Part shown: positions 1 through 56,646 of the stretch, in pieces | Position numbering within the stretch: the first letter of the stretch is position 1 | Layout of the letters: each line of letters starts with the position of its first letter | NCBI RefSeq assembly: GCF_000165425.1 | Contig: NW_001799111.1 | Coordinates: 443,779 to 507,778, forward strand | Source of the DNA: Paramecium tetraurelia | Lineage: Eukaryota; Ciliophora; Oligohymenophorea; Peniculida; Parameciidae | Direction: 5' to 3' | DNA length: 64,000 bases | Position numbers and translations under genes: made by a program | The notes under the pieces: generated by a model | Told to the model about the DNA's origin: nothing | The model's input: the letters and a program-made list of their open reading frames with translations, nothing else | Database searches by the model: none

Positions 1-3000
1 AGTTCTTGTAAGTCAAGTTTCGTATTTGGGATTATTGGGAGGATACTGATCAATCAATTAATGCAATTTAAATTAAAATGGCTGCCAAGGATGTCTATCA
101 TTTCATGCCTTCAAGTACTTCAGTTAACTTATAATTGAATATACCACCTGAAAATTGTAGATTTTCTGTGACTCCATCCACTGGAACATCCATTACTGAT
201 CTATTTGTTCTATCAGTTACTAATTGCTTTGACTTTTAGCTTCCTTTATAATATCAATTTCATATTTATTCTAGTTAGAAAACATTAGATAATGATAATT
301 TAATAGGGGAAACAATAAATAAAAAGTCAATAACAGATAAATAATCAAGTTCTTAATTGTAATTAGTATTGCCAACACCTATAGATCTGGATAATAGTAT
401 TGCTTATGAATTAGTGCTTGTAGCAAGTATTTATGATAATAATAATGGAATGAAAAACCTAACCAAAACGGTTAAAGTTAATAGTATTTATCAAAAAATA
501 GAAACTTCAGATTTCTAATCAATTTTATTATAAATTAGAAGAGCACTTAAATTAAGTGACACAATTGATGAGTCAGCTCTTCCCTCATTATTTATAGGCA
601 GTCAAGAATTATCAACTTTATATAGTTAATTATAGCCAGAGAAAAAGGCATAAATGAAAAACATTCTTAAAGAAATTTATTCTATTTTACAATAATTTTA
701 AGGCAAAATGACAAGCAAAGTTTTAGAAGAATCACTTTTATCATCAATCGCAGCCATTGGTAGAACTGGTATCAATTATGAAATGGATGGAGCTAATGTT
801 GTCGATTTCTATACAATAAAGTAATAAATTAAAAAAACTGTCAAATAGTTAAATAGATAAATAAATGATTTAGATTATTATTTAAAATAAAAATAGAAAT
901 CAGGAGGATCAACATCAAAATTTGAAGATGCAATCAAAGCTTTAGATAATACACTTCTTAATAGTGGTTTTGTTACTGATACATTATTTAATGCGATCAA
1001 ATCTAACTCATTTTAAGGAGCAGATGTCACGGATGCAGATGTTAATTTGCTAAAAGAATAAATTTAATAAATAAATAAATTAGTGGCAGTAGCAACTTTA
1101 AAGAGAAGTTTAGCTAATGAAAAACCTAGACAATATGCAGGTTAATAGATGGGTATGTAAGCCTATAAATCAACACCCGCTTAAATTGTTTCAGTTTTAG
1201 GTAATAAGATTACCCCCCTCTTTTTTGGAACAGAAACTTATGCAGATGAGGATATCTAAGGGTCTGGAAGCAATGATAATTTGAATTTGGAAGAGGAAGT
1301 AGATGAAATAAATTATGATGAATATCTTTCTATGTTAAATGGAACCAACAGTACAAATAGCACTAATAGTACAAATAGCACAAATAGTACGAATAGTACA
1401 AATTCAGGAAATAAGAGAAGACTCCTTTAATTTGTTGAATGGATTTAAAATAAAAATAATCTTCATTATTTAAGAAACTTATAATAAATAAATCCTACTA
1501 CTGTAAAATAATATGAAGTTAGTATGTCTAATTATGCTACAAGTCCAAATTTGAATGATCCTAAATTTAAATCATAACTTAATGTTAATCAAACTAATGA
1601 AGTTACCAATTCATCAAATATTACTCATGATTAATCAATAGTTAGTAACTTTGGTACAATTTAACCAAATATCACAATGACAGAAGATGGTAGTAGTACA
1701 GAAATAAAGAGCCTTGATGGTCAAACCATTAAATTATCATTTTCTGCTCCATAAAATGATAGTGCCAATTCAACTATGGAATGCTATTCTGAGGCAAAAG
1801 ATACATGGGAAACTGGTACATGTAAAATAAAGAAAGATGTGGATTCTAAAGGTAATATTGCTTACGTTTGTGATTGTGTGGTAGTTAATCCCACTACAGT
1901 CATCACAAAATTGGATAGTTTTATTTCAAACAAATTAAGTGCAGTGTTTAATGCTGACTCTTTGAACATCTTTTTATAAATTTAATTTTGGAAATATGCC
2001 ATTTTCTACATTGCTATTGGATTTACAGGTGCTTATGTTGCACTCATGGTTTTAGGATTAAGGAAGGATAATTAAGATTTTATAGAAGAAATCACCAAAG
2101 AATTGTAATTTACTGATGAAAACATTCCAGACAACATTAAGAAGTTGAAGTAACAAATCAATAATCTAATTATTGAAGAGTAAAGCAACGAAAACTCAAT
2201 TGATGCAGAAGAGGAGAATAAGACAGTATTGAAGAAAGAAGATATGAATAAATTAGCTTTATTTACTTTAAAAGGATAAAGTGATTTGGAATTCAAAAAA
2301 GATGAAGAAGGTAATTTAATTATTCCTGAAGAGAGAGATAGCAATATATTAAATTAGAGAGACATTCAAAGTTTATAAGTAGAACGAAATAAAGCTAAAA
2401 TCAATTTTAAATAAGTTCAAGATTAGTTATAATAACATTAACTTTATAATCCCTCAACGAATAAGCAATAAGGAAGAGCAACAGAGTTATCAAAGGTAAT
2501 TAAAAATGTTTATACAATTCACGATTTGAAATTTCAATATGGTTAAGAAATCAAACTAAAGCCTTTAACATTAAAAGTTCTTTGGGAAGGAATATTAGTA
2601 ACTATTATATTTTTTAACAATAGACCCTTCATAGAGTATTATCAATATTAATGTTATATGATGATGTTATTAGTAGACCAGCTAGATTTGCTTTGATTTA
2701 TGCCAAAACTATTTTAGTATTAGCATTATCAGCATTATTTTCTGGTAACATGGGACCTGTTTACGGTACTTTAATATCAGTTGGAATTGGTTAAGTCATC
2801 AATGTGATTCTATCCATCATTACAGTTACAATGAAAGCATCTCCAATCCTCAAATTTTTAGGAATTTTATTAACGATTGCAATATCTGCTGTGTGCTGGT
2901 TCATTGTATTGATGCTTTCTGCCAGCATGGAAGAAACCTAAGTATTTTGATATAATATTATTATAGGCTAACATATGGGCAGTTTAATTTGCATCAACCT

Positions 3001-3200
3001 AAGTTATAGACCTAATCATTGTAGAGTTCCTTATTATATCGATTAAACTTTCCATATACCCTTGGGCAATCAAAGCATTACATGATCCTGACGCGAATGC
3101 TTCTAAAATTCTTGCTAATTTACTGTTTATTGCAGTTGCTTAACCATAAATTTCAAAGTTCTTTGAGGTGGAGGATAAGAAAGACAACTTTGAAGCTTGA
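1..3200 (+). CDS. 3' part of giant GPS/multi-TM membrane protein (paralogue of 15323-33802)
   Basis: The gene enters from the left edge with the first full codon at base 3, and ends at TGA 3198-3200. About 1,048 residues are visible. Two introns restore frame: 2598-2623 (26 nt) and 2942-2966 (25 nt). In order: an extracellular-looking region; a run of N-S-T triplets (about 1340-1400); a GPS-like cysteine motif around 1776-1900 with Cys, Trp, Cys and a final CDC; a first membrane segment near 1985-2055; a charged Gln-rich loop; then several hydrophobic segments from 2624 to 3190. By eye it is about 85-90% identical to the reverse complement of 15323-18512, so it is the 3' end of a second giant gene. 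A polycystin-1/adhesion-receptor-like architecture (REJ-GPS-TM) is an inference. The 5' end lies outside the window. Confidence 0.85.
1..3200 (+). repeat. left arm of inverted paralogous duplication
   Basis: These 3.2 kb match the reverse complement of about 15323-18512 throughout, including both intron positions. The arms are separated by 12.1 kb of unrelated single-copy genes. The left arm continues beyond the window, so the full length of the duplication cannot be seen. Confidence 0.85.
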
Positions 3201-15322: not shown

Positions 15323-18300
15323 TCAAGCTTCTAGATTACTTTCAGGTTTATCTTCCACCTCAAAGAACTTTTAAATCTAAGGTTGTGCCACTATTATAAA
15401 AACTAAATTTGCTAGGATTTTAGAGGCACTTTCATCTGGATTGTTTAATGCTTTGATTGCCCAAGGATATATGGAAAGTTTAATTGTTATAATAAGGAAT
15501 TCTGCAATGATTAGATCAATAACTTATGTTGATGCGAATTAAATTGCCCATATATTTGCCTATAATTATATTTATATCAAAATACCTAGATCTCTTCCAT
15601 GCTGGCAGAAAGCATCAATACGATGAACCAGCAAACAGCAGAGATTGCAATCGTTATTAAAATTCCTAAAAATTTGAGGATTGGAGATGCTTTCATTGTA
15701 ACTGTAATGATGGATAGAATCACATTGATGACTTATCCAATTCCAACTGATATCATAGTAGCGTAAACAGGTCCCATGTTACCAGAAAATAATGCTGATA
15801 ATGCTAACACTAAAATAGTTTTGGCATAAATCAAAGCAAATCTAGCTGGTCTACTAATAACATCATCATATAACATCAATATTGATAATACTCTATGAAG
15901 GGTCTATTGTTAATAAATATAATAGTTACTAATATTCCTTCCCAAAGAACTTTTAATGTTAAAGGCTTTAGTTTGATTTCTTAACCGTGTTGATATTTTA
16001 AATCATGAATTGTATAAACATTTTTTATTACATTTGATAATTCTTTTGCTTGTATTTAATGTTTATTTGTTGAGGGATTATAAAGTTAATGTTGCTGTAA
16101 CTAATCTTGTACTTACTTAAAATTGATTTTAGCCCTATTTCGTTCTACTTATAATCGATAAATGTCATTCTGATTCAATCCTGCATGTTCTTCGTCAGAA
16201 CCACCAATTAGTTTCCCTTCTTCATCTTATTTAAAATCTGCATTATCTGGAGCTTTTAAAGATAGCAAAGCTAATCTAGCAAATTCACCAGATTGAATAA
16301 CTGGTTATCCTTCTTCTTCCTGTTCCACTGAATCTTCCATGCTTTTCTCTTCTATAACTATGTCATGAATCTCTTTCTTTAAATTTTGCAAATTAGGATT
16401 TAGATTGGTGTTTACATTTAATTCTTTGGTGATTTCTTCTATAAAATCTTAATTATCCTTCCTTAATCCTATGACCATGAGTGCAACATAAGCACCTGTA
16501 AATCCAATAGCAATGTAGAAAATGGCATATTTCCAAAATTAAATTTATAAAAAGATGTTCAAAGAATCAGCATTAAATACTGAGTCTAACTTGTTTGAAA
16601 TAAAACTATCTAATTTTGTGATGACTGTTGTTGGATTAACGACAACACAATCACAAACGTATGCAATATTACCTTTAGAATCCACATCTTTCTTTATTTT
16701 ACATGTACCAGTATCCCATGTATCTTTCAATTCAGATACACATTCCATAGTTGAATTGGCACTATCATTTTATGGAGCAGAAAATGATAATTTAATGGAT
16801 TGGCCTTCAAGACTTTTTATTTCTGTGCTATTACCGTTCTCTGTCATTGTGATATTCGGTTAAATAGTACCAAAATTGCTAATGATGGATTAATCATGAG
16901 TAATATTTGATGAATTGGTAACTTCATTAGTTTGATTAACATTAAGTTATGATTTAAATTTAGGATCATTCAAATTTGGACTTGTAGCATAATTAGACAT
17001 ACTGACTTCATATTATTTTACAGTAGTAGGATCTATTTATTATAAGTTTCTTAAATAATGAAGATTATTTTTATTTTAAATCCATTCAACAAATTAAAGG
17101 AGTCTTCTCTTATTTCCTGAATTTGTACTATTTGTGCTATTCGTACTATTAGTGCTATTTGTACTGTTGGTTCCATTTAACATAGAAAGATATTCATCAT
17201 AATTTATTTCATCTGCTTCCTCTTCTAAATTCAAGTTATCATCGCTCCCAGATCCTTATAAATCAGTACTTGATGTATCAGAGCTGCTTCCAAAAAACCT
17301 AGGTGTTATTGATCCACTTAATATTTTTGTAATTTAAGCAGGTGTTGATTTATAGGCCTACATACCCATTTATTAACCTGCATACTATCTAGGCTTTTCA
17401 TTGGCTAAACTTCTCTTTAAAGTGGCTATTGCTACTAATTTATTTATTTATTGAATTTATTCTTTTAATGAGTTAACATCTGATTCTGTAATATCTGCTC
17501 CTTAAAATGAATTAGCTTTTATAGCATTAAATAATGTATCAGTCACAAAACCACTATTAAGAAGTGTATTATCTAAAGCTTTGATTGCATCTTCAAATTT
17601 TGATGTTGATCCTCCTGATTTCTATTTTTATTGTAGAAAATAATCCAAATCATTTATTTATCTATTTAACTATTTAAAAGTTTTCTTCAGTTATTGCTTA
17701 ATTGTGTAGAAGTCAACAACACTCGCTCCTTCCATTTCATAAGTGATACCAGTTCTACCAATAGCTGCTATTGATGATAAAAGTGATTCTTCCAATACTT
17801 TACTAGTCATTTTACCTTAAAATGATGATAGAATAGAATAAATATCTTTAAGAATACTCTTCATTTGTGCCTATTTTTCTGGTTACAATTAATTATAGAG
17901 AGTTGATAATTCTTAGCTACCAATGAATAATGAAGGAAGAGTTGACTCATCTATAGTTTCACTTAATTTAAGTGCTCTTCTGATTTACAATAAAACAGAT
18001 TGGAAATCTGAAGTTTCTACTTTTTGATAAATACTATTAACTTTAACAGTTTTGGTTAGGTTTTTCATTCCATTATTATTATCATAAATACTAGCTACAA
18101 GCACTAATTCATAAGCAATACTATTATCTAGATTTATAGGTGTTGGCAATACTAATTACAATTAAGAACTTGATTATTTATCTGTTATTGACTTTTTATT
18201 TATTGTTTCTCCTATTAAATTATCATTATCTAATGTTTTCTAACTAGAATAAATATGAAATTGATATTATAAAGGAAGCTAGGGATCATAGCAATTTACG

Positions 18301-18512
18301 ACTGATAGAACAAATAAGTCAGTAATAGATGTTCCTGATGATGGGGTAATTATAAATTTACAATCATTGGGTGGTATGTTTAATAATAAATTAACAGAGG
18401 ATGTGGATGGCATATAATGATAAATATCTTTGGCAGCCATTTTAATTTGGATTCCATTAATTGATGTATCAGTATCTTCCCAATAATCCCAAATACGAAA
18501 CTTGACTTATAA
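15323..18512 (-). repeat. right arm of inverted paralogous duplication
   Basis: The last 3.19 kb of the giant gene match bases 1-3200 in inverse orientation, with intron positions conserved and the intergenic sequence beyond the stop codons unrelated. The homology ends at, or very near, both stop codons. Confidence 0.85.
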
Positions 18513-21500
18513 GAATTTAAACGTAAAGGATGCCACAATATTGTAATTATAAACAATTTAGCAAAAGTACTTTAATGAATCAGGATCAACTGAAGTGGCT
18601 AATGTAAAATTGAGTTCTTCATGCAATAATATTTACCTACCATCATATCCTGATGGGTAACTTACTTAAATATTAGGCAAATCATTTTCAATAACTAATA
18701 GGATAATTTAAGTAATCAATATAGTTGAATATTTAGTATTTCTCATAACAAATTAAAGTGGTTAATAAGGATCTAACACTCTAGGTTTAAATGTCTGGGT
18801 AGCATCAGTTACGTTTAACTCTAAAGCCTCTTTATTTGAATCTGTGCAACTTTCGCTAGTAGCTAGATTGATACATCTCCAATTAAATGTAATATCTGGA
18901 TCTTTGTTCCATGGATATTCAAGATCAGGATCTCTACAGAATCCATTCAGGACTGCATAATCATTAAAAGATTAAGTTCTTGTTCCACCTTAAATATAAG
19001 CCTGCATAGGACTACTAATTATTTTTATTGTAAATTATATTGATGTCTTAATTGGTTTATTAGTTAATGATGCTGTAACTTAAAGTGTGTAAGTGGAATT
19101 AACAGCTGCTGTATAAGCTGGTATTCTCAAAGTGTTCAAAAATGTCATACCATCCGTTTCAGAGATGAAAGAATCCTTGAGTACACTTGGAGTATCTTTT
19201 GGAGTCTTAGCAATTTCTGTCCAATTAACTCTGATTGCATCAAAAATTTCAACAACAGAGCTGGTATAGCATGATAAATGTTTAAGGGTTACAGTGAATG
19301 ATAAGTCTTCCCATCTACCGAATGTATATTATTAATCTGGATCAATTTTAATGATGGGGGACTCATATGATTCAGTTTGGATTGTTGTTTGTGCAGTATA
19401 AACTTAATCTCTAAAATTTTTTGCTTTTAGCTAAATTACATATGTGCCATATTCACTTAAAGAAAGAAATTAGATTGTAATGGATTATAAATTATTGGCA
19501 TTAGCATCTGCAAAAAGACTAGTTAAATACTGAGAGACCGATGAGGTTTATGGATACATTTTTACAATGCTCCAAGTTATCTCAGTTAAATTTCTTTTTC
19601 CATCAACAAATTTATTGATTATATTTATTGGAATATCTTAACAAAGTGTAAGTGGATCACTATATGTTGTTAATTCGAATAAAGGCTCCATTTTCACAGG
19701 ATTGTAAGAGAAATTAATCAAAACAAATGTCGATATCGCAGCGCTGCATCCAGTTTTTAACAAAATATCAGTGTTAAATTATATTACTGTAGTTATGGTT
19801 ATGCTACTTTGCTCAGATAATTCTACAATCAAGATTTTTTCTTATATTACTGAACATAAGGGAGCACTTCCGAGTGTTTAAAATGTACTTGGGTTAAATA
19901 TTTAGGAGCAAGCTTAATAGGGTGTTACTTTCTTGGTTGATACAAATTGTACATTGAATGGAAAGTAAAAATAAATTATACTTAAGTCACTGCTGAATTA
20001 AGCAGAGATTACAGCAACATTGCAATCTGAACAATATGGTGTTTCTATATGAGAAATTGAATTTGGAGGACATGTGCATTATAAGGGTTCTAAAATTCTA
20101 TTTCCTTTGCAAGTGAGACAATTGTCTTTGTTGCAAGTAGAACAATTTCCGAAACAGACTTAACAATTGATGGAGACTTCGTCTTCATAATACCCATCAG
20201 GACAATAGCACACTGGATTATTAAGTCGATCTCCCTTGCAATTTTAACAAGTAGCTGTAGTATCACAAGCTTAGCATTTATTAGGACAAGCTAAGCATTC
20301 ATTATTCAATTCGTAAAACCCATTATCACAATCACAAATTGGTAAATTGATTCTATTTAAATTGCAGGCTAAACAAGTATTCAAATCACTGAGAGTACAA
20401 AGTCCACATTTAAAGTAACAAGCTGTGCATTATTTAACTCCACTTTCAATATATCCAATTTTACAATCACAACTTGTACCCTATCTACTCGTAGGACATG
20501 AAGTACAGTAAGTGCTCTATTATTAACAGGTTTAGCATTTATAATTACAAACATCACAAATCAAATTGCCATTATCGTAATATCCTGCACCGCAAGGACA
20601 TGAGTCTGTTGCCTTCACTCTCTAGGTTCCACTAGTATTGCACTTAACACATTTTGTGTTTTTCTCCATGCAAGTCAAACAGGAGTAGTGGCAATTCTGA
20701 CATTATTTATTAAGATTGTCATCATAGAATCCATCATTGCATGGACAAGTATTATCTATACTACTTTTATCCACTCTTCCATATGTGATATTACATGAAG
20801 TGCATACTTGGAATTGAGAGCAAGTGTTACATTAAGGATGGCACAATTTACACACAGTATTCATTCCGTCATCATAATAGCCATCTTAACAAGGACAAGT
20901 GTTATTGATGCCGCTCTTGTCTATTCTAAATGTTTTATTTGTGTTGCATTGAAGACAAAATGTTGGTAGAGTTTAACACTCCTAGCAACTAGCACTGCAT
21001 TTCATACAAGCAGCAAAACCAATATCAGAATATGATGACTAACACTTACATGTGTTCTTTACAGAGTCGTATTTTCTATTCGTATTTAATGGGCAACTCA
21101 AACATTTATCTTAATTAGTTACACAAGTTCTGCATCTATATGAACATGGTTAACATTATGCATTTGTACCATCATCAAAATAACCATCCTTGCAATAACA
21201 TCGTTTATTAAATGAATCAAATAATCTATTAAATGTTGGTTCACAAGATTAACACTAATTGCTCATCACCTTACAAGTTTTGCACGGATAATCGCATTAT
21301 GGACAGATGACGGAATCTAAAGTATCCTTAAAATATCCAGCCATACACTGACAACTTGTAACTATCAATTCTCTAAACTAAAGCGCTTAGCAATCAGAAC
21401 ACTCTGTCCTCGTTGGCCCTGTGCAATTATTGCAATAAATTGAACATTGTTAACAATCCCAAGTTAGATGTATATGATAGTAATGAGTATCACAAATGCA

Positions 21501-24500
21501 TTCATTATTAGATAAAGATCTATGTGAGTTGATCTTACATCCAGTGCATTTAGTTGCTGTATCTACACATGTTGAACAAGTATAATCACATGGCTAACAT
21601 AAAGCATTAACACCATCATCATAATATCCAGGATCACATGGACATGTATTATCTGGTTATTGAGTTCTAAAAACAGATAATACGCAGGTTTAACATACTT
21701 TACCTGCTAATGAACATTTACTACAACTATGATCACAATTTGCACAAATTTAACTGACTCCATCATCATAATATCCATCATTACAAAGACATAAAAAGTT
21801 GGTACTATCCCAAGTCCTATGATATAGAGGGTCGCACTCACTACATTTAGTAGGGATTGTAATGCATTTTCCACAAGAATAGTGACATGGACTACAGATA
21901 ATAACACCTAATTCTAAAAAACCTGGTTTACATTCACAAGTAAACAAATTTAGATCTAATTTTCTGTTTGAATTCAGTGGACAACTTATACATTATGTTT
22001 TAGAAAACTAGCATGTTTGACACTTATAATCACAGGGTTAGCAATCAAGTAACCCAAATGCTGTATCTGCTGGTGGATAATATCCATCTTAACATCTACA
22101 ATTATTCTCTTTTTATCTGTATCTCCCCCAACATTTACATTGATCATTCTAAACTGAATTCAAAACTTATTCATATATTGCTAGACTTATTGATTAAACA
22201 ACATCACTTGGCTATGGGATAGCTCCAAAATCTGCAAAAAGTAAATAAATTAAGAATATGTTATCCTATTGTTATATTTTATAAGTTAAATCTTTAAGAG
22301 GAGGTGTGACAATTGTGTTGATTGTATCAAATTATGGATTTAATGGTCGAATAAAGCATTCGTAGGTATTTGGAAATAATTAAGAATCATATGTTGTGTA
22401 GCATATTGATTAAAATACAATTCCATACTCACTAAAATATGATGTAGAAAGATCTAATTTTCCTTTATTGCTTGGAATAAGTTTGTTATAAATAATAATT
22501 TCATCGATTTTAGTTTCGATAAGTGTCACTGATACTGCATTAATTGTAAACTAATAAATTTGGGATTATGCTCCAAAATATTTTGGAGTAATTTTTTAAA
22601 TTTCACTTACACCTGCTTAAGGTACATCAATGTAAGTGCTTGGTTGTGAAGAGGAAGTTAATTTACCTAATATTAACGCATCATATTGATAGTTATTATC
22701 TGCTACCAGTGCCTAGTAGTTATTTTAAACCAAAGCATTTAGCAAAGCATCTAAGGGAACCTAATAGTTTTTAAGAACAGTAACAGCATTATCAAAATTA
22801 AAATAACTGCATTTCTTACCATTCATATTTTCAACATCAGTAACTAAGTGTTATAATGGATCAAATTCATTGTTCATAGATGTCTAATACCCATTTCTAA
22901 ATATATCACATTATAAATCATTATTATAAGTTTAACACTGAAAATCAAATCCAAAATATCCAGTGGACTTTAAGACTCCTTGATAAATATCCTAAATAAT
23001 AGCATAAGTATTTAAATTATTTGAACTTTTAGATAATACCATTAAGTAATATATTTATTTGATTTTTTGAATATTGCTTATCTTTACTTCAGTACTACTT
23101 TATGATAATACAATAGAACCATCATATTCATTCAAATTGATGATAAATATTTAATAAACTTAAGTTTCAGTCCTCTTACACAAACTTATGTAAGCATAGA
23201 TGTCTTTATACAAAGTTTCTGATTATGAACATGATACAAATGTATCTGTTGAAGCCATTGAAATTGAAATATACAGAATATTATTTAATTATGCCCCTAA
23301 AACAAACTTATTATTAGCTTATGTAAAGTACTTAGTTAATTTACCAAAGGCAGAATCTCCATTTACTAAATATCCATTAGTATAGATAATATTTTATTTA
23401 AGATCTGTGCTTATCTTATGAGAAATATCAAAGGGAAATTTAGTATTTATTGCATTTGTTCCTTTACTTATAAAGTATCCTCCTATTTATTCAGTTAATG
23501 CTTCAAATGTCCCAGGTATTGATAAAGGATTCTAAACCCAATATTGATTGACATATCTTAATGGTGTTCTAGTCGATAATTCAATTGATTTTATTAACAA
23601 TTTTATGTATTATTCAAAAATGGTTTGATAAGAATTATTTATTAATGTATCATCAAAAGCCATAACAGCAAAATTAATCTATTTGACATTAGCTCCACTC
23701 ACCGTTATCAAAACATTATTTGCATTTTAAACTACATTAAATGTGTGTCCTTAGTTGTAACCGAATATCAAAGTCTTAACAGATGTTGTACCATATATAT
23801 CAACCATATATCCTACAAATTGGTAATTATTGCTAGTATATGTAAGTTGTTATGTGCTAATTTAATATCCACTAGTAATAAAATGTTATATTGTAAATTG
23901 ATTGAATATGAATTATGATAGCATGTGCAAACCAAAGACTAATATTTCTGGAAATTAGACAGTGAAATATGAGAATCCACTACTATCATATTGTATAGAT
24001 GTAGTCTAATAATTAACATCTACATTATTTAATTAAATCAATGCACTATTTCCACTGAATTTACTTGAAGACAATGCTGTTGAAATATAATTGGATCCAT
24101 CTGTTACTTTTAATGGCAATAAATTAGTTGGTATAACTTCAAGTAAAAATTGATGATTTTCCCAAAACATTTATTTGGTATTCTTAGGGTGAGGTGTGCA
24201 TTCGAATGCTATGCCCTACCAATATAATTGGCCTATATAATTTGCTACAGCTATTAATTATGCATTTGTAGCAGCACTAAAGGTTGCACTGTTTTCATAA
24301 AATTCTGTTAATAAAATAACTGGTTAAGATGAACTGAATTGAATATTTAATTAATAAACATTGCTTATGATGGAACTTGTAATAGTTGGAGGATTGTTGA
24401 TGTTGTAAGTGAACACCAATACAACTGTATATAAATAATCAATATTGAATGTCACAATTTATTAATTGAGAGATGATTTGGGTACAACATTGCTTTGAAT

Positions 24501-27500
24501 ATTTTCACTATCTGCAACTACAGTAAATTTGTATTCCATTCTTAAGTTTAAGACAGTAGCATCTTTTTAGAAGAGTAAATATCGAACATTGTCCTTGAGA
24601 AAATGAAAATAGGAAGCTTAATTGCCAAAAGGACTTTGATCAATTTGAATCTCTTATTATTTAAGCAGTAGAGAATTATGGTTATTTTTATCAGTTGAAA
24701 TAATACCTTATTCAAGCTAACTTTGAAGAGAACATGAAATAGAAGAGTCAATAAGAGCGTCCATTTCTATATCAGTAGGAGATAATGAATTAGCATTCAG
24801 ATAATCAATTAAATTGTTCGAACTTGGAGAAGGTAAAGATGTAGCTAGTTTTCCAAAGTTAATCTCTGAGCAAGAAGCTCTGCAAAATCTGGTGTTATCA
24901 GGTAAAGTACAAACACACCTTCCATTTAATAAGACTCTGTTACTATTACAAGTTAAACAGGTATTAACATTGCAAGTTAAACAATCCATAGGGCAGGATT
25001 ATATACATTGTCCTGTTTAATTCATTTCAAATCCTTATTTACATACACAAGCCAAGCCATTTTTGGATGGAAGTTAGTCATATTTAGTAAGGTCGCATGT
25101 TTGACATGTAGATTATGATGTACAAGTTAAACAAGTGACGTGACAAAGACTGCATATACCATTGTTTTCAAAGTATCCATCATCGCAAATGCATTAAAAA
25201 TTAGAAAAATGTCTATTCATTCCAGTCAAGCATGTTTTGCATTTAGTTCCATCTGCGAAAGTGTAACATTATTCACAGGGGCTTGTACAAGGTTTGCAAT
25301 CTGAATCATTCATCAAATTATCATAATAATTATCTTAACATATGCAAGTCGAACCAGAAAGTAAACGATGTTTTAAAGGATCACACTAATGGCATTCTGT
25401 GGGTAAATTCTAACATTTTTAACAAGTGTAATAACATTAGCTACAAGTAACACTTGCGCCGACCTAATAGTATCCGTCACCACATACGCAGACTTATGCG
25501 ACAGCAACACGGTTTGAACCAGCAACACAAGATGTACATTCATTTCCAGTTCCATTATCTATGCATTCTAAGCAAGGAGATATACACAAACTACACAATA
25601 CTACTCCAGTAGTTTCGTAATATCCACTATCACAAGGACATTTATTGTTAACAAGATCAATTACTCTGTGTTATCCCGTTTAGCAAGTAAGACATTGAGT
25701 ACCATCAGGTGGTGGTGATGCTTAAGAAACGATGCAAGATAAGCATGGAGCTATACATGGTGCACAGACTGGAGATGAGCTTTATGAAAAATGATTGGGG
25801 TTACAAACGCATTACTTACTTGCATTTAACGTTCTATTATCCCCTGCTCTGCATTCAGTACATTGAGTGCCATCTCCATTATTTTCACAATTATAGCATG
25901 TACTTTCACAAGCGATGCATGGAGTCACATTATCCATTTAATAGTAAGATGGTTTACAAACGCAGACTTAATTTTTGACTTGTCGATTTTAATTTGGAAG
26001 ACAAGTTGTACAATTTTCACCATCATTGGGATTACAATATTCACAAGGTACAACACAAGATAAACATTATAATTCACCGAGTGGCTGATAATATCCAGCA
26101 ACACAACTATAACAAAATGTTGGAAGAGTGACACATGACGCACAAGGACTCTAACAGCTTTAACAAGTTCCATCAGAATCTTCATAAAATCCGTAAGCAC
26201 AATCACATGTATTACCATTTAATACTCTCCCAACTGCACATGCTATGCACCTATCGCTTTACAACTCGCATTGGAAACAAGGAAAGGAGCAAGGTTAACA
26301 TACAAGATCTGTTCCAAAGTAACCATCTTAGCATTAGCATTTTTTGACAGGATCTCTGAATGTGGATGGTTTACATTAATCACAATCCAACTCATCCGTT
26401 AAACATGAAACACAATAAGAAGTACAAGCTTAACATACTAAATACCCGGCATCAAAAAATCCTATTTGACAAGGACAAGTTTTAGTGGTGTTATTAACAG
26501 CTCTATTATTATCAGGCAGACAGGTTACACATTAATTTCCATCATAGTTTACTCCATTACCATCTTTACCACTCAAACAAGTATAGCATGGTGAAACGCA
26601 AGCTGTACATATAAGTTAAGCATCAGAATAGTACAATCCATCATCACAAATACATTAGTTATTATATAAAGTTCTCAAATAAACATCAAAATCGCATGAA
26701 GTACAGTTTGTTGCTGAGGTTTAACAAGTTTTACATTATATGTCACAAGCATTACAAGTAGTGCCATCCAGATAAAATCCATTTTCACAACTTGTACATT
26801 AAGTAGGTACATCAACACATGTCTTACAATTAGCATCACAAATTAGGCACACACTGTCACCATTATTTTGATCATAATAATGAGGTAGACAAACACAAAC
26901 ATCACTAACGACACCTCTAAAATCACTTAAAAAGCAATCTACACAGGTTGACGTTGTTGTGGCACAGTTAAAACAAGGTGGAGTGCAGGGTAAACAAATA
27001 GTTCCACTTAGAAAATATTATGGAATGCAAGATAAGCAGACTGAATCTGAAGAACATTCAAAACAGGGCTATGTGCATGAATGACAAGTTTTATCAGTTC
27101 CAGATACAACTAAAAAATCTCCTGGAGCACATTCAGAACATTAAACATCTGCAGTTCCTGTACATTTGTAGCAAGTAGGATGACAGGCTTAACATGTTGA
27201 AGTATTATCCAGATAATAATGATATTAACAATCAACACATACTTCTACTTGTGATGGAGATTAGCAAACGGCACATGGAGGATGACATACTAAACAAACA
27301 CCAGAAGTTGTGACTGTGATATTATCTAAATACAATCCTGAACTGCATGTCAAGCAATTTGTAGTTGTGTCTTTGCATGTTGCACAATTGACGTTGCATG
27401 CTGACTCGCAAACGTGATTTGAAAGGTTAACATACATCAAATCAAAGCAAGTAGTGCAATGTGATGGATCTATCACACAACTTTAACAATTATCTGTGCA

Positions 27501-30500
27501 TATTAAATCGCAAACAAATGTAGTTTCATTTAATTTATAACCATCATAGCAAGATTAACAATTTGTTGTTGAAATTGTGCATGTTAAACAATTCGTATCA
27601 CAATCAGTTTGACACACATTTGTGGTTTTATTGAGATAAATTCCATCAAAACAAGAGGTACAAAGTGTTGGCTAGCTGAAGCAAGTTGCACAATTTGAAT
27701 CACAAACAACAGTGCATTTATTTGTACTTGTATCTAATTAAAATCCTGAAAAACATGTTAAACAATGGGTTGTGGTAATATCACAAGTTGCACAATTTGA
27801 ATTACATGTATTTACACATGTATTATTAGTTTCATTTAAGTAAGTTCCTGCTGGGCAACTTAAACAATTAGTTGTTGTTATCAAACAAGTAGCACAATTT
27901 ATATCACAAGAAGGTTGGCATATAAAGCTTGATTTATTAAAATACATCCCTGCATTACAAGTCTTGCATTTTATTGTAGTTACTTAACATGTCAAACAAT
28001 TTGCATCGCAAGTGTTTTAGCAAATATTATTTGATAAATTTAAGTAATAGTTGGTGTTACAAGTTAAACATCTAGTAGTTGTAGTTTAACATGTCAAACA
28101 ATTTGAGTCACAAGTGGATTAGCAAAGATTTGTAGTCTCATTTAAATACATGCCTGCATTACAAGTCAAGCAGTGCGTAGTTGTTGAGAGACAAGTTGCA
28201 CAAATAGCATCACATGTTGATGAGCATGTATGTGCTGATGAATTCATATACATTCCAATATTACAAGTTAAACAATAATTTGCATAAGTTTAGCATGTAG
28301 CACAATTAGCATCACAAGTATTCTAGCAGGTATTATTTGATAAATTCAACAAATTAGCTGGGAAACAAGTTAAACAATGATTGGTAGTTGTTTAACATGT
28401 GTCGCAATTTGGATCACAAGAAGATTAGCATTGATTATTAGATGGATTCAAATATTCTCCAGGGTTACAAGAGAGGCAATGAGTTGTAGTGGTTTAACAG
28501 GTCAAGCAAGTTGGGTCGCAACTTGCCGAGCATGTATTATTTGATAATAATAAATATTTTCCAGCTTAACAAGTTAGACAATAAGTAGTAGTGCCTTAAC
28601 AAGTATCACAAGTAGCATCGCAAGTGGATTGGCATACTTTTGTAGTTGAATTCAAATATTATCCAACAACGCAGGATACGCAATTGATTGTTGTGCCTGA
28701 ACAAGTAGCACAATTAGCATCACAAGTTGAATCACAATAATTTGTTAATGAATTAAAATATTTCCCAGAAGCACAAGTTAAACAATAATTTGTTAAATTT
28801 TGGCATGTCGCACAATTTGCATCGCAATTGGCATCACAATATTAAGTTGAAGGATTTTCATATAAACCAGGATTACATGTTAAGCAATGAGTAGTTGTTG
28901 TTTAGCAAGTAGCACAATTTGTATCGCAAGTAGATTAACATTAATGGCTTGATGGGTTTAAATACATTCCTGAATCGCATGTCAAACAATGAATTGTCGT
29001 ATCTTGACAAGTAGCACAATTTGGGTCGCAAGTAGATTAACATTGATTATTCGATACATTTAAATACATCAAGTCATAACAAGTAAGACAATTAACAGCA
29101 GTTGTTTCGCAGGTTTTACAATTTGAATCACATATGATATAACAAACTGTACCAGAACCTCTTAATTCCCAGCCACTCTGACATGAGAGGCACTCAGTTG
29201 TTAAAGTCTAACAAGTAGCACAATTTGAATCACAAGTAGATTGGCATTAATTATTTGATACATTTAAATATTATCCAACATTACACAACAAACAATATGT
29301 TGTTGTGCCTTAACAAGTTAAGCAATTACTATCACAGGTTGATTAGCATAAATTTGTGCTTGGATTTAAGTACATACCTGAATTACAAGTTAAACAATGA
29401 GTTGTAGTTGTTTGGCATGTTGCACAATTAGCATCGCAATTAGACTCACATATATTTGTTGCTTAATCCAAATACATTCCAATTGTACATGTTAAGCAAA
29501 ATGTTGATAGAGTCTAGCATGTCGCACAATTTGATTCACAAACAGATTAGCATTGATGATTAGATATATTTAAATAAGATCCTACATCACAAGTTAAACA
29601 ATAAGTGGGTGAGCTTGAACAGGTTAAGCAATTTAGATCACAAGAAGAAACACATTAGTTAGTTGATGTATTTATGGTATTCTCCTGAGTTACAAGTTTG
29701 ACAATGAGTTGTAGTATCAACACAAGTGAGGCAATTAATATCACAAGAAGACTAACATTGATGAGTAACTTCATTTAAGTACATTCCAGAGTTACATGTT
29801 AAACAATTGGTTTAAGTTGTTTAACATGTTAAACAATTTGAATCACAAACAAAAATACACTAAAAAGTAGTATTATCCAAAACAAAATTTGAGAAGCATT
29901 GTGTGCAATGAGTAGTTGTAATTGAACATTATTAGCAATTTGAATCACAGTTTGATGAGCATTAATGAGTGGATTCGTCTAAATAATATCCTGTGTCACA
30001 TGATAAACAATATGTAGTTGAATTTTAACAAGTCAAACAATTAGTATCACAACTCGATTAGCATTGATGGGTTGATAAATTTAAATAATTTCCTGAATCA
30101 CATGATAAACAATATATTATTGTAGACTAACAAGTTAAACAATTGCTATCGCAAGTTGATTAACATGAATGAGTTGATTCGTTTAAATAATTACCTGAAT
30201 CGCAAGACAAGCAGTAGGTTGTGGTATTTTAGCAAGTTGCGCAATTACTATCACAACTTGATGAGCATTGATGAGTTGATGAATTTAAATAATTACCAGA
30301 GTCACAGGATAAACAATAGGTTGTTGTATTTTAACAAGTCAAACAATTGCTATCACAACTTGATTAACATTAATTAGTTGATGAATTTAAATAATTTCCA
30401 GAATCACATGTTAAACACTGTGTGGTTGTAGTTTAACAAGTTTAGCAATTACTATCACAAGTAGATTAACATTGGTGAGTTGATAAATTTAAATAATTTC

Positions 30501-33500
30501 CTGAATCACAAGATAAACAATTAGTTGGTGTAGTCTAACAAGTCAAGCAATTACTATCACAAATTAACTCACATTAATGAGTTGATGAGTTTAATTAATA
30601 TCCAGAATCGCAGGATAAACAATATGTAGTTGAATTTTAACAAGTCAAACAATTAGTATCACAACTCGATTAGCATTGATGGGTTGATAAATTTAAATAA
30701 TTTCCTGAATCACATGATAAACAATATATTATTGTAGACTAACAAGTTAAACAATTGCTATCGCAAGTTGATTAACATGTATGAGTTGATTCGTTTAAAT
30801 AATTACCTGAATCGCAAGACAAGCAGTAGGTTGTTGTATTTTAACAAGTTGCACAATTACTATCACAATTTGATGAGCATTGATTAGTGGATGAATTTAA
30901 ATAATTACCAGAGTCACAGGATAAACAGTATGCAGTTGTATTTTAACAAGTCAGGCAATTGGAATCGCAACTTGATTAACATTGATTCGTTGACGAATTT
31001 AAATAATTCCCAGAATCACATGTTAAACAATATGTTGTTGTAGTTTAACAAGTTGCGCAATTACTATCGCAAGTTGATTAACATTGATGGGTTGATAAAT
31101 TTAAATAATTCCCAGAATCACAAGATAAACAATACGTTGTAGTAGTTAAACAAGTTGCGCAATTACTATCGCAACTTGATTGACATTAATTAGTTGATGA
31201 ATTTAAATAATTTCCAGAATCACATGTTAAACATTGTGTGGTTGTAGTTTAACATGTTTAGCAATTACTATCACAAGTAGATTAACATTGGTGAGTTAAT
31301 ATATTTAAATAATTTCCTGAATCACAAGATAAACAATTAGTTGGTGTAGTCTAACAAGTCAAGCAATTGCTATCACAAGTAAACACACATAAATGAGTTG
31401 TTGAGTTTAATGAATATCCAGAATCACAAGATAAGCAATATGTGGTTGAATTTTAACAGGTCAAACAATTAGTATCACAACTCGATTAACATCGATTTAT
31501 GGATTCATTTAAGTAATTGCCAGAATCACAAGTTAAACAATTGGTTGTTTTATTTAAACAAGTTGCACAATTACTATCACAACTTGATTAGCATTAATGA
31601 GTTGATTCGTTTAAATAATTACCTGAATCGCAAGATAAGCAGTAGGTTGTTGTATTTTAGCAAGTTGCGCAATTACTATCACAACTTGATGAGCATTGAT
31701 TAGTGGATGAATTTAAATAATTACCAGAGTCACAAGATAAACAGTATGTAGTTGTATTTTAACAAGTCAGGCAATTGCTATCACAGCTTGATTAGCATTA
31801 ATGAGTTCCTACATTTAACAACTAACCCGTATCACATGATATACAAAATGTTGTCGTCGTTTAACAGGTCAAACAATTGCTATCACAACTTGATGAGCAT
31901 TAATGAGTTGATGAATTTAAAAAATTACCAGAGTCACAAGACAAACAATATGTTGTTGTGTTTTAACAAGTCAGGCAATTGCTATCGCAACTGGATTGGC
32001 ATTAATGATTTGAAGAATTTAAAATAATTACCAGAATCACAAGATACACAATATGTTGTTGTATTTTGACAAGTCAAACAATTGCTATCACAGCTTGATT
32101 CGCATTAATGAGTTGATGAATTTAAATATTTACCAGAATCACAAGATAAGCAATGAGTTGATGTAGTCTAGCAAGTTAGACAATTACTATCACAAGTTAA
32201 CTCACATTAATGAGTTGTTGCATTCAATGTATTGCCAGAATCACACGATAAACAATATATTGTTGTGTTTTAACAAGTCAAGCAATTACTATCACAACTT
32301 GGTTAGCAAAAATGAGTGAATAAATTCAAATAATTACCTGTATCACAAGTTATGCAATATGTAGTTGTCGTCTAACAAGTGGAGCAATTGCTATCACAGC
32401 TTGATTCGCATTAATGAGTTGATGAATTTAAATAATTTCCTGAATCACATGTTAAACATTACGTGGTTGTATTTTGACAAGTCAAACAATTACTATCACA
32501 ATTTGACTAGCACTAATGAGTTGATGAATTTAAATAATTGCCTGAATCGCAAGTTAAGCAATATGTCGTTGTGGTCTAACAGGTTGCACAATTACTATCA
32601 CAATTCGATTAGCACTAATAAGTTGATGAATTTAAATAATTTCCTATATCACAAGTTAAACACTATATGGTGGTGTTTTAACAAGTCAAGCAATTACTAT
32701 CACAATTTGACTAGCACTAATGAGTTGATGAATTTAAATAACTACCTGAATTACAAGTCAAGCAATAAGTAGTTGTAGTTTAACAAGTTGCACAATTACT
32801 ATCACAACTCGATTAACATTAATGAGTTAATGAATTCAAATAATTACCTGCATCACACGTTAAGCAATATGTTGTTGTCGTCTAACAAGTTAAACAATTG
32901 CTATCGCAGCTTGATTCGCATTAATGTATTGATGAATTTAAATATTTACCAGAATCACAAGATAAGCAATGAGTTGATGTAGTCTAGCAAGTTAGACAAT
33001 TACTATCACAAATTAACTCACATTAATGAGTTGTTGCATTCAATGCATAGCCAGAATCACACGATAGACAATATTTTGTTGTAGTCTAACAAGTCAAGCA
33101 ATTGCTATCACAGCTTGATTAGCATTAATGATTTGACTCATTTAAATATTATCCTGTATCACAAGAAATACAATATATTGTTGTAGTCTAACAAGTCAAG
33201 CAATTACTGTCACAACTTGATTAGCATTAATGAGAGGACGAATTTAAATATTTACCCGAGTCACATGAAGTACATGTTGTTGTTTTTTCAAAACAGGTAG
33301 CACAGTTTGAATCGCAATTCAATTAGCAAATATTTAATGATTCATTTAAATACATATTTGATGCACATGATAAGCAATGATTATAATATAATAAACACGT
33401 TTAACAGTTTTCGTAACAACTATTAACACAAGTGCTATCTACTGAATTTATATATAAAGGGCAAGTATCTACACAATTCTCCTGGTTTTTGAATTTTGGT

Positions 33501-33802
33501 GGATCACATGATACGCATGTATTACTTGTAGTATCCAAATATTTATTTTAGAGTATATTGCATTTCGTGCAATAATTGGAGTTATTTTAGCATTCTAAAC
33601 AGTTTACATCACAATTCAAGCATGTACTGCCAGACAAATACCAACCTTATATGCAATTATCGCAAGTTGTCCCATCAGAACATGTTGCACATTCAGTAAG
33701 GCAATTTAAACAGCCTCCTAATCCATCATCATATTATTAAGATGTACATTAACTGTATACTTAAGTAATCAGAATTAAAATACTTAAAAACAAAGTATTC
33801 AT
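15323..33802 (-). CDS. giant cysteine-repeat GPS/multi-TM surface protein (about 6,100 aa)
   Basis: Starts at ATG 33802 with a signal peptide (MNTLFLSILILITQVYSQC) and ends at TGA 15325-15323. In order: a first cysteine-rich block; a 59-unit array of a 34-residue six-cysteine repeat (about 33350-27340); more CxxC-rich furin/TNFR-like modules to about 24900; a low-cysteine region (24720-22220); a second cysteine-rich block (22200-20050) with CLCNDGYYDDGVS-type modules; a long region (20050-16760) where REJ/PKD-type domains are expected; an N-S-T run near 17110-17165; a GPS-like motif (16620-16750); one membrane segment (about 16520-16450); a charged loop; and about four more membrane segments (15900-15340). 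Two C-terminal introns are firm: 15904-15929 and 15560-15585 (26 nt each). Others upstream are not mapped. The layout recalls polycystin-1/REJ receptors; no PLAT domain or channel pore was found. Two units of the array are 103 bp, so the frame as given is not continuous. Confidence 0.85.
27340..33350 (-). repeat. 102-bp tandem array, 59 units, coding
   Basis: Marker positions (the CAATT of the CDSNC codons) recur every 102 bp from 27385 to 33303: 58 intervals, of which 56 are exactly 102 and two are 103 (29629-29732 and 31976-32079). Each unit encodes 34 residues with cysteines spaced C-x3-C-x2-C-x6-C-x2-C-x12-C, typified by CDSNCQTCQTTTTQCLTC and an SGNYLNSSTNQCQSS second half. Units between 30.0 and 33.2 kb are the most alike, and longer blocks of 6 and 8 units are repeated there. 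Units toward 27.4 kb are more diverged. The spacing resembles furin-like or growth-factor-receptor cysteine modules but is shorter. Confidence 0.95.
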
Positions 33803-47542: not shown

Positions 47543-50525
47543 ATGTAAATTTTAAAGAAATTCGCGGATTCGAAGTCAGCCAAAATTGGAATCGTTGTCG
47601 CTTTGGGTTTGAGCGGTGTTGCTCTTACCTATCATTAATACGATAAGGCCAAGAAATCTCGCATAATCGCGACTTAAAACCCACCTGTCGCTGAAAACGA
47701 GTTTGGATAAAATCGATTTTTAACTTAAACAGGAGCCATTCAAAGATGGGGTCAAATTGTATAAGATAGTATTTCATATAAAGTGGATTTATTGTTGAAA
47801 AAAGGTACCTATCTAATAAAGATTACGCATAGGTGAATCATATAGTGGTTTAGTAACATTGGAATTTGATGCAAAACACACCTTGACAGATTTGTATGTT
47901 GATTTTAGAGGAAAGAGGGTGGTTAGTTTGTATGTCAATGAAAATAAGATTAACAATTTGGATTGGAATGGATTATTTATCAAGGTACCAAAAGAATTCT
48001 TGAGGACATCTTAAAAGAATAGAGTTAATATCTAATTTGAGTAGGATTATGCTAAAGATGGATGTGGATTACATGGCTATATTGATAAAGATGGAAAATA
48101 ATATCTGTATAGTTAATGTGAATCTTATTTCACAAACAGATTGTATAAGAATATATTAATAAATTAGTTTCCCATGTATGGATCAACCTGATTTGAAAGC
48201 CAAATTGAGATTCACTGCAGTATGTCCTAAAGAGTGGGTAGTTATTTCAAATGAAAATGCTGATCAAAATTAATAGTTCAATTTTGCCTAGGCTGCTAAT
48301 GTCGTTAAAGATTATCTGCCTTAAGAATTGGTGGAGAGTTAGCTCTAAAATCTCGAGAATTCAGATTCATACAACTTTTGGGTGTTTGGTGGAACAAAAA
48401 CTTTGCCAACATATTTATTTGCTTTAGTTGCAGGAGAATATTGGTCAGTCAAATTTTAAGGAGAACAAGATGATATACCATAGACTATATATTGCAGAGA
48501 AAGCTTAAAAGAACACATGATAAACTTAAAAGATTTCATATTTGAAGTAACAAAGAAAAGTATGAAATTCTATGAGAATTTCTTTGGAGTCAAATATTAA
48601 TTCAATAAATATGATTCTGTCTTTGTTAATGAGTACAATTGGGGTGCAATGGAAAATCCTGGATGCGTGACATTTAATGATTTTTATGTTTTTAAGGAGA
48701 AGAAGCCAGCAACTAGTTATACTTCATTTGCTAATACAATTATTCACGAAATGGCTCATCATTGGTTTGGAGATTTTGTAACAATGAAATGGTGGAATGA
48801 TTTATGGTTAAATGAAAGTTATGCTGAATTCATTTCCCACTTTTGTTAGGAAAATATTAAAATTGAAACAATCAAATTATCTAACATTCCTGTTATGTTT
48901 AATTAGAGAAAGGGATGGGGATACAGAGAAGATTAAATGCTTACTACACATCCAATTGCTGGTGAAGTTATCAATACCGAAGTAGCAGAGAATATTTTCG
49001 ATGGAATTACATATTCCAAAGGAGCCTCAGTTATGAAATAATTAATGTGTATTATGGGAGCAGCTAAATTTGGAGAGGCTTGCGGAAATTATTTTAGAAA
49101 ATTCGGATGGAAGAATGCTGTTTTATAAGATTTAATTGATCATTTATAAGAGAAATTTGATAATCCAGAATTTACATTGTCCTATTGGAAATAACAATGG
49201 ATTGAAACTGCTGGTATGAATGAAATTGAACCTTAATGGGATTAAACAGATAGATCTCATCAAGCTAAATTAACTGTCTTTTAAAGACCTGCTCTAAGTT
49301 AATTCCCTACATTGAGAATTCATAAAATTAAAATAGGATTTTTCCATGATAATGGCATCGATTCCATTGACACTATACTCAAAGCAACAGAAGAAAATGT
49401 TATCACTTATGATGGTAGTAAGGGATATAGAGCATTATTGTTGAATTACGAAGATTAATCCTTTGTGAAGGTACTTCTTGACTAAGAGTCCACAAAATAT
49501 TTCAGTTAAAATTTACAAGCAGTCTAGGATATCCTAACTAGAACTTTGATTTACAGAGCTCTTTTTGATAGTGTAAGAGATGGTAAAATAAGCTCAGAGG
49601 AGTATGTTGATTTCCTTTTGGCCTAACTACCAAGAGAAAATTCAGATGAAATTTTGAATACTTAATTGTTATACTTATAATCTGCTATTGCATCCATGAC
49701 ACCAAGAAAGTAATAGTTATTATAATCACCATAGATTCAAGAAGATTCTTGGTAAAAGAGTATTTACATTCCTCCTAGAACAAATAATCAAAGTTAGTAA
49801 AGATCCATAATAAGAAAATAAATTGATTTTATTAAGAAACAACATGGCAGCATTTGCATATGATAACACATGTGTCGATGAATTGTTGGCTTGGTTCTAA
49901 GGATAAAATCAAGAATTATCCTCAATTGAATGCACCAAAGATACCAAATGGGCAATTGTTAAATTAGTTTATGCCTCTTAGAAATATGATTCAAATCCTG
50001 AATTAAGAAAAGAGATCCTCGAAAAGATGTTGTAAATTGATACTTCTGATGCTGCTTCAAGAGCTCAATTGAAATGCAAAGCTCTTATTGCAAACGAATA
50101 AGAAAGAGCTGCTCTTTGGTAAAAGTACGTTGATCCCAACGATAAAGAATCAGCCAAAATGATTGCAGAATCAATGGCTGGATTCAATAATGAGAGACGT
50201 TACCTGAGTTTGGAACCATATTAAGACAAATTCTTCGAAGTCATTATTCAAATCTTCCAAACTAAAAGTAACGATTTCAGTAAGACTTTCTATGATTACC
50301 TGTTCCCAATCACTGATGATTTGGCCAGTCTTTGCAATGTATTGTTTGTATTTACAATTTTAGAAAGTCGAGAAGTTGAGAACTACTGTTCCTGAAAATT
50401 TGATCACTCTAAAAATGCAAGTGGATAAATCACTTGATTCACTTAAGAGATAAGTGAAGTAGTTTGAATGTTTCTGTAACCAAGCCAAATTAGCTACATA
50501 ATAAGTATAAGAAAATGAAGTATGA
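47543..50525 (+). CDS. M1-family zinc aminopeptidase
   Basis: 961 residues; introns 47805-47832, 48143-48167, 49760-49778 (only 19 nt) and 50339-50363. The N-terminus has a hydrophobic segment (IGIVVALGLSGVALTY) after a short basic stretch, suggesting a membrane anchor or targeting signal. M1 hallmarks: FFPCMDQPDLKAKLRF, the exopeptidase motif NWGAMENPG, the zinc site HEMAHHWFGD with its third ligand in WLNESYAEF, then GITYSKGASVMKQL and an alpha-helical C-terminal domain of about 400 residues. The catalytic Glu in HEMAHH and the Tyr in ITYSKG are present, so the enzyme should be active. Aminopeptidase N/puromycin-sensitive relatives trim N-terminal residues from peptides. It is 35 bp from the next gene on the same strand. 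Confidence 0.95.
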
Positions 50526-56200: not shown

Positions 56201-56646
56201 ATTTGGACACTCGATCTAGTTAATTAAAGAAGCTTACAATCTATGAAAATAGTGAGTATTACGATTCAAAGAATGATAGAATGATGTGCAAAGGAAGTGC
56301 TGTAATAGAAAATTCTTGGGTTTTAGAGGAGATAGAGGTAATTATTATTATTAATATTAATTAATAGATACCATTCCCTAAGGATTAATTGGGATTTTAT
56401 TCAAAATTTGCAAGATTTCTGTATTCTGGAGAAATATTGTAGTTCTATTAGATACTCTAAAAATATTACAAATATAAGGTATCAGAAATTAGAGAATCAA
56501 ATATGCAACCATATTCATAAAAAATAATAAAGGCACTCATGTTCAATGAGATAACAACCAAGAATGATCTCATTAAGAAATGGTCGAAAGATAAACAGTA
56601 ATTATATGTTTAAACAAGTTAGATTTCTACTTTAAGAATGTCTTGA
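53233..56646 (+). CDS. DEAH-box RNA helicase, DHX37/Dhr1-like
   Basis: 1,112 residues; introns 54106-54127 (22 nt), 54427-54449 (23 nt) and 56338-56367 (30 nt). A charged N-terminal region of about 190 residues precedes the helicase core. Core motifs: [10 protein letters not shown], Ia [49 protein letters not shown] and [32 protein letters not shown] after motif III resembles DHX37. Between motifs IV and V there is a long Gln/Glu-rich insertion (about 54600-54740), as DHX37-type helicases also have acidic inserts there. The winged-helix, HA2 and OB-type C-terminus follow. Family role: release of U3 snoRNA during 40S ribosome assembly. Assignment to DHX37 rather than another DEAH protein is likely, not certain. 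Confidence 0.9.

Follow-up and report, generated by a model that had tools for sequence, protein, structure and literature searches.

A 64,000-nucleotide stretch of the Paramecium tetraurelia genome (contig NW_001799111.1, positions 443,779 to 507,778; hereafter the window) carries on its minus strand a giant gene in which, read in the ciliate code (code 6), 60 six-cysteine units of 34 residues and 102 bp follow one another between positions 27297 and 33418. An inverted paralog on the same contig has the same domain order and two such units between the corresponding flanks. Recent block duplications show that the window copy has grown for part of the array, which is a clear example of growth by repeated unequal exchange in a protein otherwise of known kind. 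The contrast of two versus 60 units in two nearby copies is new, as is, as far as our searches go, the occurrence in a single ciliate protein of a REJ domain, furin-like repeats and five predicted membrane spans. A literature search, which left most subscription papers outside its range, found no paper on the gene pair or the array.

The array and its period

Under the bacterial code, the window contains no open reading frame of 150 residues or more, and it was therefore read in the ciliate code. A minus-strand gene then opens across the array interval and far past it, in three overlapping open frames (33913-31937, 32073-29641 and 30032-15879); the guanine plus cytosine content of the window is 28.5%. 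The first cysteine of unit 1 (u01) lies at 33418 and unit 60 (u60) starts at 27398, with steps of 102 bp on the minus strand and only two spacings of 103 bp. The pattern C-x3-C-x2-C-x6-C-x2-C-x12-C is exact in 57 of the 60 units, the exceptions being u60 and the two frame-broken units, u14 and u37. Identity at a lag of 102 bases is 0.677 over 27300-33470, compared with 0.288 after shuffling (200 base shuffles, standard deviation 0.005, maximum 0.301).

A sequence-only reading of the same DNA had already described the array, and its 102-bp period and cysteine spacing are borne out by the unit starts, the lag identity and the pattern count. Its count of 59 units, however, falls one short, and less regular furin-like repeats extend on to about 24.9 kb. 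It overlooked the remainder of the gene, with its REJ domain, GPS-like motif and membrane spans, as well as the use of the ciliate code and both breaks in the frame. For the variation in copy number between strains that it predicted, the nearest evidence is the paralog with its two units.

Block duplications and the age of the units

Higher-order duplications were sought by comparing 60-base windows at fixed offsets in the middle and upper parts of the array, with a threshold of at least 90% identity. At an offset of 612 bases (6 units), 13 of 55 middle windows and none of 26 upper windows reach the threshold; at 816 bases (8 units), the figures are 12 of 48 and 5 of 19, and additional windows begin between 30360 and 30900. 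Control offsets of 510, 714 and 1020 give no such windows in the middle part, while in the upper part offset 510 gives 1 of 29, offset 408 gives 2 of 33 and offset 714 none. Two exact matches, of 166 and 83 bp, lie at the 6-unit and 8-unit offsets (Table 1). Eight unit pairs are at least 93% identical, five of them at a lag of 8 units, two at a lag of 6 and one at a lag of 14, and 2000 shuffled orders of u02-u34 place at most four such pairs on any one lag. Collinear neighbouring pairs with at least 88% identity number eight, whereas the shuffled orders average 0.54 and never exceed 5. The 6-unit and 8-unit duplications noticed in the sequence-only reading are thus confirmed by offset windows, exact matches and pair lags, and its appeal to unequal exchange gains support, as that process would give block duplication within an array.

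Most units are old, and only the block copies are recent. Mean identity between adjacent units from u02 to u36 is 0.752, and the earlier description of the units at 30-33 kb as nearly identical was overstated, with adjacent core units averaging about 75% identity. The Nei-Gojobori ratio of nonsynonymous to synonymous divergence (dN/dS), calculated over all pairs and using 56 of the 60 units (u01, u14, u37 and u60 were excluded), is 0.154 in the 32 core units and 0.349 in the 24 distal units. Synonymous divergence in the core is high (dS 0.99), and variation at third codon positions is 0.37, compared with 0.16 and 0.15 at the other two. Because of these ratios, and because third positions are the most variable, the units are seen to be maintained as protein, under purifying selection. 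A unit phylogeny, a check that had been suggested along with the first description of the array, was built with FastTree from 58 of the 60 units (all but u14 and u37) and the two units of the paralog, with the root deliberately placed on one of the latter. One clade of 37 tips (support 0.98) takes in every one of the 32 core units and five distal units, and several block partners emerge as sister tips, including u05/u13, u22/u30 and u26/u32.

The inverted paralog

The paralog occupies positions 434394-446471 of the contig on the plus strand, as one open frame of 4026 codons, and only its 3' part lies within the window. The two genes are convergent (tail-to-tail), and their 3' ends lie about 12 kb apart. 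DNA identity within the pair is 54-73% from the gene start to about 25.2 kb, the array excluded; in 150-base windows, it is 92-100% from 24344 to about 22995 and patchy beyond (58-99%). Further patches with 92-100% identity are found at 21794-21495, 18794-18495, 18194-18045, 17144-16854 and 15959-15660; outside the patches, identity is mostly lower (54-94%). The high-identity patches are located in the middle and REJ-side parts of the pair, with none around the array. This mosaic is likely to reflect gene conversion between the inverted, convergent copies. The difference between two and 60 units may have arisen either by growth of the window gene or by shrinkage of the paralog, and no outgroup bearing the same 34-residue units was found in the array searches.

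Frame breaks and near-identical blocks

The two 103-bp units each contain one extra base that breaks the reading frame, and the resulting frame segments were analyzed separately. No third break is seen, the frame running uninterrupted from 29642 to 15930, a length of about 13.7 kb. In a distant family member at C198:173361-180496, a block of about 1784 bp occurs in three near-identical copies, with some 16 furin-like motif matches in each, followed by a fourth, partial copy that diverges after about 1510 bp; given these blocks, array growth has therefore taken place in a second member of the family too. The near-identical copies differ by three one-base insertions, every one of them confined to one copy and two of them lying in homopolymer runs. 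We suspect that the one-base breaks in the window array are assembly errors left uncorrected in repeats where polishing is difficult.

Alternatively, the window gene could be a pseudogene in decay, with an array that drifts as the gene is no longer needed and the paralog is retained. The two frame breaks within the array speak for this reading, but the purifying selection among units and the long open frame with no further break make this quite unlikely, and the single-copy insertions in the C198 blocks fit incomplete polishing of repeats. A similar doubt may be raised about the higher-order blocks themselves, since near-identical blocks are difficult to assemble and one-base length differences do occur in the array. 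That the blocks are artefacts of assembly is nevertheless highly improbable, as the partners in 10 of the 11 listed pairs have substitutions of their own (2-12 per pair). The eleventh pair is identical, and is the only identical unit pair in the whole array.

Nature of the module

Furin-like (Fu) repeats have the consensus C-x2/3-C-x2-C-x5/8-C-x2-C-x10/13-C. The cysteine spacing of the array unit we take to be that of these repeats, as they occur in R-spondins and in the insulin and EGF receptor families. The sequence-only reading was unable to name the module; partial matches to VSP and DUF4215, together with a weak structural match in which the furin-like fold of R-spondin ranks first, now provide a fair, though not conclusive, case that it is furin-like.

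In Pfam, VSP scores 31.2 bits in the array, just under its cut-off of 31.4, and 38.1 bits downstream of it (26499-27332), above the cut-off. DUF4215 reaches 43.4 bits in 29641-32073 against a cut-off of 27, is above the cut-off in two of four five-unit segments, and covers at most 38 of its 47 profile positions. The profile search of the module that had been proposed earlier thus gives partial matches, and the Pfam Furin-like family itself has no match. A profile of the array finds no solved structure at E<=0.01; at E<=10 it finds 40 unrelated sequences (best E 0.25), none of the furin-like or growth-factor-receptor class. When 26499-27332 is compared with solved structures, R-spondin-1 at E=0.1 is the sole chain at E<=1.

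An AlphaFold2 model of five units, for which 42 overlapping stretches taken from the array itself served as the alignment, is a ladder of short strands with a predicted local distance difference test score (pLDDT) of 75.2 and a predicted template modelling score of 0.34. Among the best 50 of 172 Foldseek matches, R-spondin takes ranks 1-10 and 23 of the 50 places in all, and 4-1BB, insulin receptor, EGF-type and other structures come next. These matches are weak, with a best E of 0.028 and none at 0.001 or below; at rank 40, R-spondin 1 has a template modelling score of 0.48 by target length, at 3.0 A over 56 columns and E 0.86. The Fu repeats, as found in R-spondins and in the insulin and EGF receptors, resemble the array in cysteine spacing and supply its best-ranked fold matches. 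They stand apart in that the E-values are weak and in that the array has a fixed 34-residue period and 60 copies.

Architecture of the gene and its relatives

From its start, the gene encodes a hydrophobic leader, the 60-unit array, irregular furin-like repeats, a cysteine-poor stretch, a second cysteine-rich region, a REJ domain, a GPS-like motif and one predicted span, followed by the first intron and four more predicted spans (Table 1). Pfam scans of 25200-26432, within the irregular repeats, and of 20133-21332, part of the second cysteine-rich region, found no family; NCBIfam has no family in any of the three gene pieces given, and a sequence search of solved structures with 15879-20102 returned nothing at E<=1. 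Matches to Novirhabdo_Nv, INI1_DNA-bd, Opy2, Invasin_D4, HBS1_N, YecU and DUF1427 are all below their cut-offs and are taken as products of chance or composition.

Table 1. Features of the window gene and its paralog, in window coordinates
Feature	Position	Strand	Basis or remark
Whole gene, calculated at ~6,140 residues provided that the three segments of frame form one protein	15323..33802	-	ATG 33802, TGA 15323-15325, TAA/TAG = Gln
Putative signal peptide	33749..33802	-	Hydropathy; end point by eye
Array, 60 six-cysteine 34-residue furin-like units	27297..33418	-	Unit starts, pattern count
Core units u02-u34, more alike	29950..33316	-	dN/dS 0.154 (32 units, u14 excluded)
83-bp exact match to 32929-33011	32113..32195	-	8-unit offset
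u14, frame break	31990..32092	-	103 bp, one base extra
166-bp exact match to 30614-30779	30002..30167	-	6-unit offset
Distal diverged units u35-u60	27297..29949	-	dN/dS 0.349 (24 units, u37 and u60 excluded)
u37, frame break	29643..29745	-	103 bp, one base extra
Less regular furin-like repeats beyond array	24900..27296	-	Pfam VSP 38.1 bits within 26499-27332, cut-off 31.4
Second cysteine-rich repeat region (~22.2-20.0 kb)	20000..22170	-	
REJ domain PF02010	18024..19133	-	Pfam, E=1.7e-25
GPS-like motif C...W...C...CxC....PTT, directly before span 1	16623..16742	-	
Predicted membrane span 1	16470..16526	-	Hydropathy
Predicted 26-nt intron GTA...TAG	15904..15929	-	
Predicted membrane spans 2-5, two exons split by second intron	15488..15840	-	Hydropathy
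Predicted 26-nt intron GTA...TAG	15560..15585	-	
Paralog, 3' part	1..3093	+	Homology to window gene ends ~3093; remainder outside window, from contig position 434394

The genome searched for relatives is an assembly of 69.07 Mb in 231 contigs. The C-terminal piece has at least 32 matches from 33 scored candidates, and REJ is above its cut-off at at least five loci, the window gene and its paralog being included in both cases. Two queries made from array segments first return the array itself, then the corresponding paralog stretch at 41% identity, and then other furin-like stretches, among them C28:57792-66956 and C185:333070-335655. Within the family defined by the REJ domain, the GPS-like motif and five predicted spans, the window gene has the longest regular array found. 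Fits to a pattern in other genome contigs and in viral contigs (26 and 44 stretches) include none confirmed as a relative.

The arrangement C..W..C..CxC before span 1 was also seen by eye in eight relatives recovered by tblastn among the collected loci, with Pro-Thr next in seven of the eight. For the GPS-like match at C198, one locus begins after the first cysteine and another is complete. PF01825 gives E=0.007 and 0.015, both below the cut-off, in two of the four pieces submitted, both from relatives, and no score for the pieces from the window gene and the C89 relative. Upstream of the GPS-like motif, a nine-base Asn-Ser-Thr repeat is present in five copies at 17121-17165 (minus strand), and in six copies in the paralog at 1350-1403 (plus strand).

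What the protein may be

In the sequence-only reading, the product was a surface protein. The hydrophobic leader and five predicted spans support a membrane protein, putatively one of the cell surface. With a little better than even confidence, we take the product to be a contact receptor of the cysteine repeat modular protein (CRMP) type, in part polycystin-1-like, whose rod can vary in length. According to the available text of one study, mucocyst release in Tetrahymena requires CRMP1 and CRMP2, in which growth-factor-receptor-type repeats occur together with five predicted spans and a GAIN domain detected by HHpred (PMC9670195). The available text of another calls the P. tetraurelia CRMP repertoire highly expanded (PMC9815656). 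Ciliate and apicomplexan CRMPs act in secretory-organelle exocytosis. CRMPs, as described in these two texts, are large signal-peptide proteins with cysteine-rich repeats of the growth-factor-receptor type and a C-terminal membrane bundle. The window gene likewise combines a putative signal peptide (by hydropathy only), an ectodomain of this type and a predicted five-span bundle, its five hydropathy peaks corresponding in number to the spans of the Tetrahymena proteins. It differs in its REJ domain and its regular 60-unit array, and the likeness is one of architecture only.

The array is best explained as the enlarged N-terminal portion of a giant membrane protein resembling a receptor. The furin-like units may stack into a disulphide-stiffened rod that sets the distance of the tip from the cell surface, and contact at the tip could be relayed to the membrane bundle through the REJ/GPS-like region, in the manner suggested for CRMPs. 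Since each unit is a multiple of three bases, unit number is free to change, and unequal exchange would lengthen or shorten the rod and leave the protein unbroken.

Several observations weigh against this assignment. The membrane spans and the signal peptide are predicted from hydropathy alone, and membership in the CRMPs is judged from architecture; the term REJ has no occurrence in the main texts of PMC9670195 and PMC9815656. The GPS-like piece of the window gene has no match to PF01825 even at E<=10, and its sole match is to Invasin_D4 (E=0.016, below the cut-off). An AlphaFold model from the end of the REJ domain to span 1, based on two sequences, has a mean pLDDT of 36.9 and is unusable. 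Finally, with two breaks of frame in its array, the assembled copy cannot encode the protein in full.

The strong REJ match, the presence of REJ at several loci and the GPS-like motif before span 1 would also suit a polycystin-1-like protein, maybe a partner of ciliary Pkd2, in which furin-like repeats replace the PKD/Ig repeats. The giant ectodomain, the REJ domain and the adjoining of GPS-like motif and span 1 are indeed common to the window gene and the polycystin-1/receptor for egg jelly family. However, two C-terminal pieces have no PLAT or PKD-channel match in Pfam at E<=0.1, five spans are predicted rather than 11, and the repeats are furin-like and not of the PKD type, and we consider a polycystin-1-like protein unlikely. 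In the available text of a published study, Pkd1 homologues are taken as absent from Paramecium; REJ-domain, GPS-like genes are nonetheless present in this genome, which is a reason to re-examine that absence and not proof of orthology. An extension of the same idea, and an improbable one, is that the REJ/GPS-like/five-span family is the missing polycystin-1-type partner of ciliary Pkd2 in Paramecium, and that the array is a mechanosensory tether of adjustable length. Unequal exchange would then retune the tether in one of the two copies, with parts of the pair kept similar by gene conversion. There is also a slight chance that the protein acts in mating or cell recognition like Tetrahymena MTA and MTB, which, in the available text of PMC3608545, are paired genes whose products have furin-like repeats and membrane helices; the window gene and its paralog are likewise two related genes in opposite orientation. 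MTA and MTB, however, are arranged head-to-head and encode predicted proteins of 161 and 194 kD, with REJ unmentioned in that text (PMC3608545), whereas the window pair is tail-to-tail and well separated and the window protein is far larger and REJ-bearing, and the two systems are likened by description only.

Two further ciliate systems invite comparison with the CRMP-type gene proposed here. The surface antigens of Paramecium are cysteine-rich proteins of the same genus, some with internal tandem repeats, but have a glycosylphosphatidylinositol anchor where the window gene has membrane spans, as far as the available text describes them (PMC9788069). The motif CTVNXXGTGC published for them there is absent from the unit consensus. 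The corresponding family, Paramecium_SA (PF01508), has no match in six pieces of the window gene; genome-wide it has 150 scored matches from 1370 candidates, all over the cut-off, and none in 14 control genomes. In Tetrahymena leucine-rich-repeat genes with 90-bp exons, coding units also form arrays, and unequal crossing over has been proposed for these, but the fold is another and each unit is an intron-bounded exon, according to the available text (PMC6564038).

The inverted pair provides a natural comparison, in which the same architecture occurs with two and with 60 modules, for the role of ectodomain length in a receptor-like protein. It also bears on the growth of coding-gene arrays in a ciliate that rebuilds its somatic genome with every sexual generation.

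Neighbouring genes

At least one gene separates the paralogs, an IBR (half RING-finger) gene at 4250-5185 on the minus strand (PF01485, E=1e-19). Beyond the array, on the plus strand, are a peptidase M1/ERAP1-like gene at 48004-49860 (PF01433, E=3.2e-52) and, at 54334-56643, the C-terminal part of a helicase with HA2/OB-type domains. An AAT/AAG-rich repeat at 54631-54740 lies near the frame start of the helicase gene.

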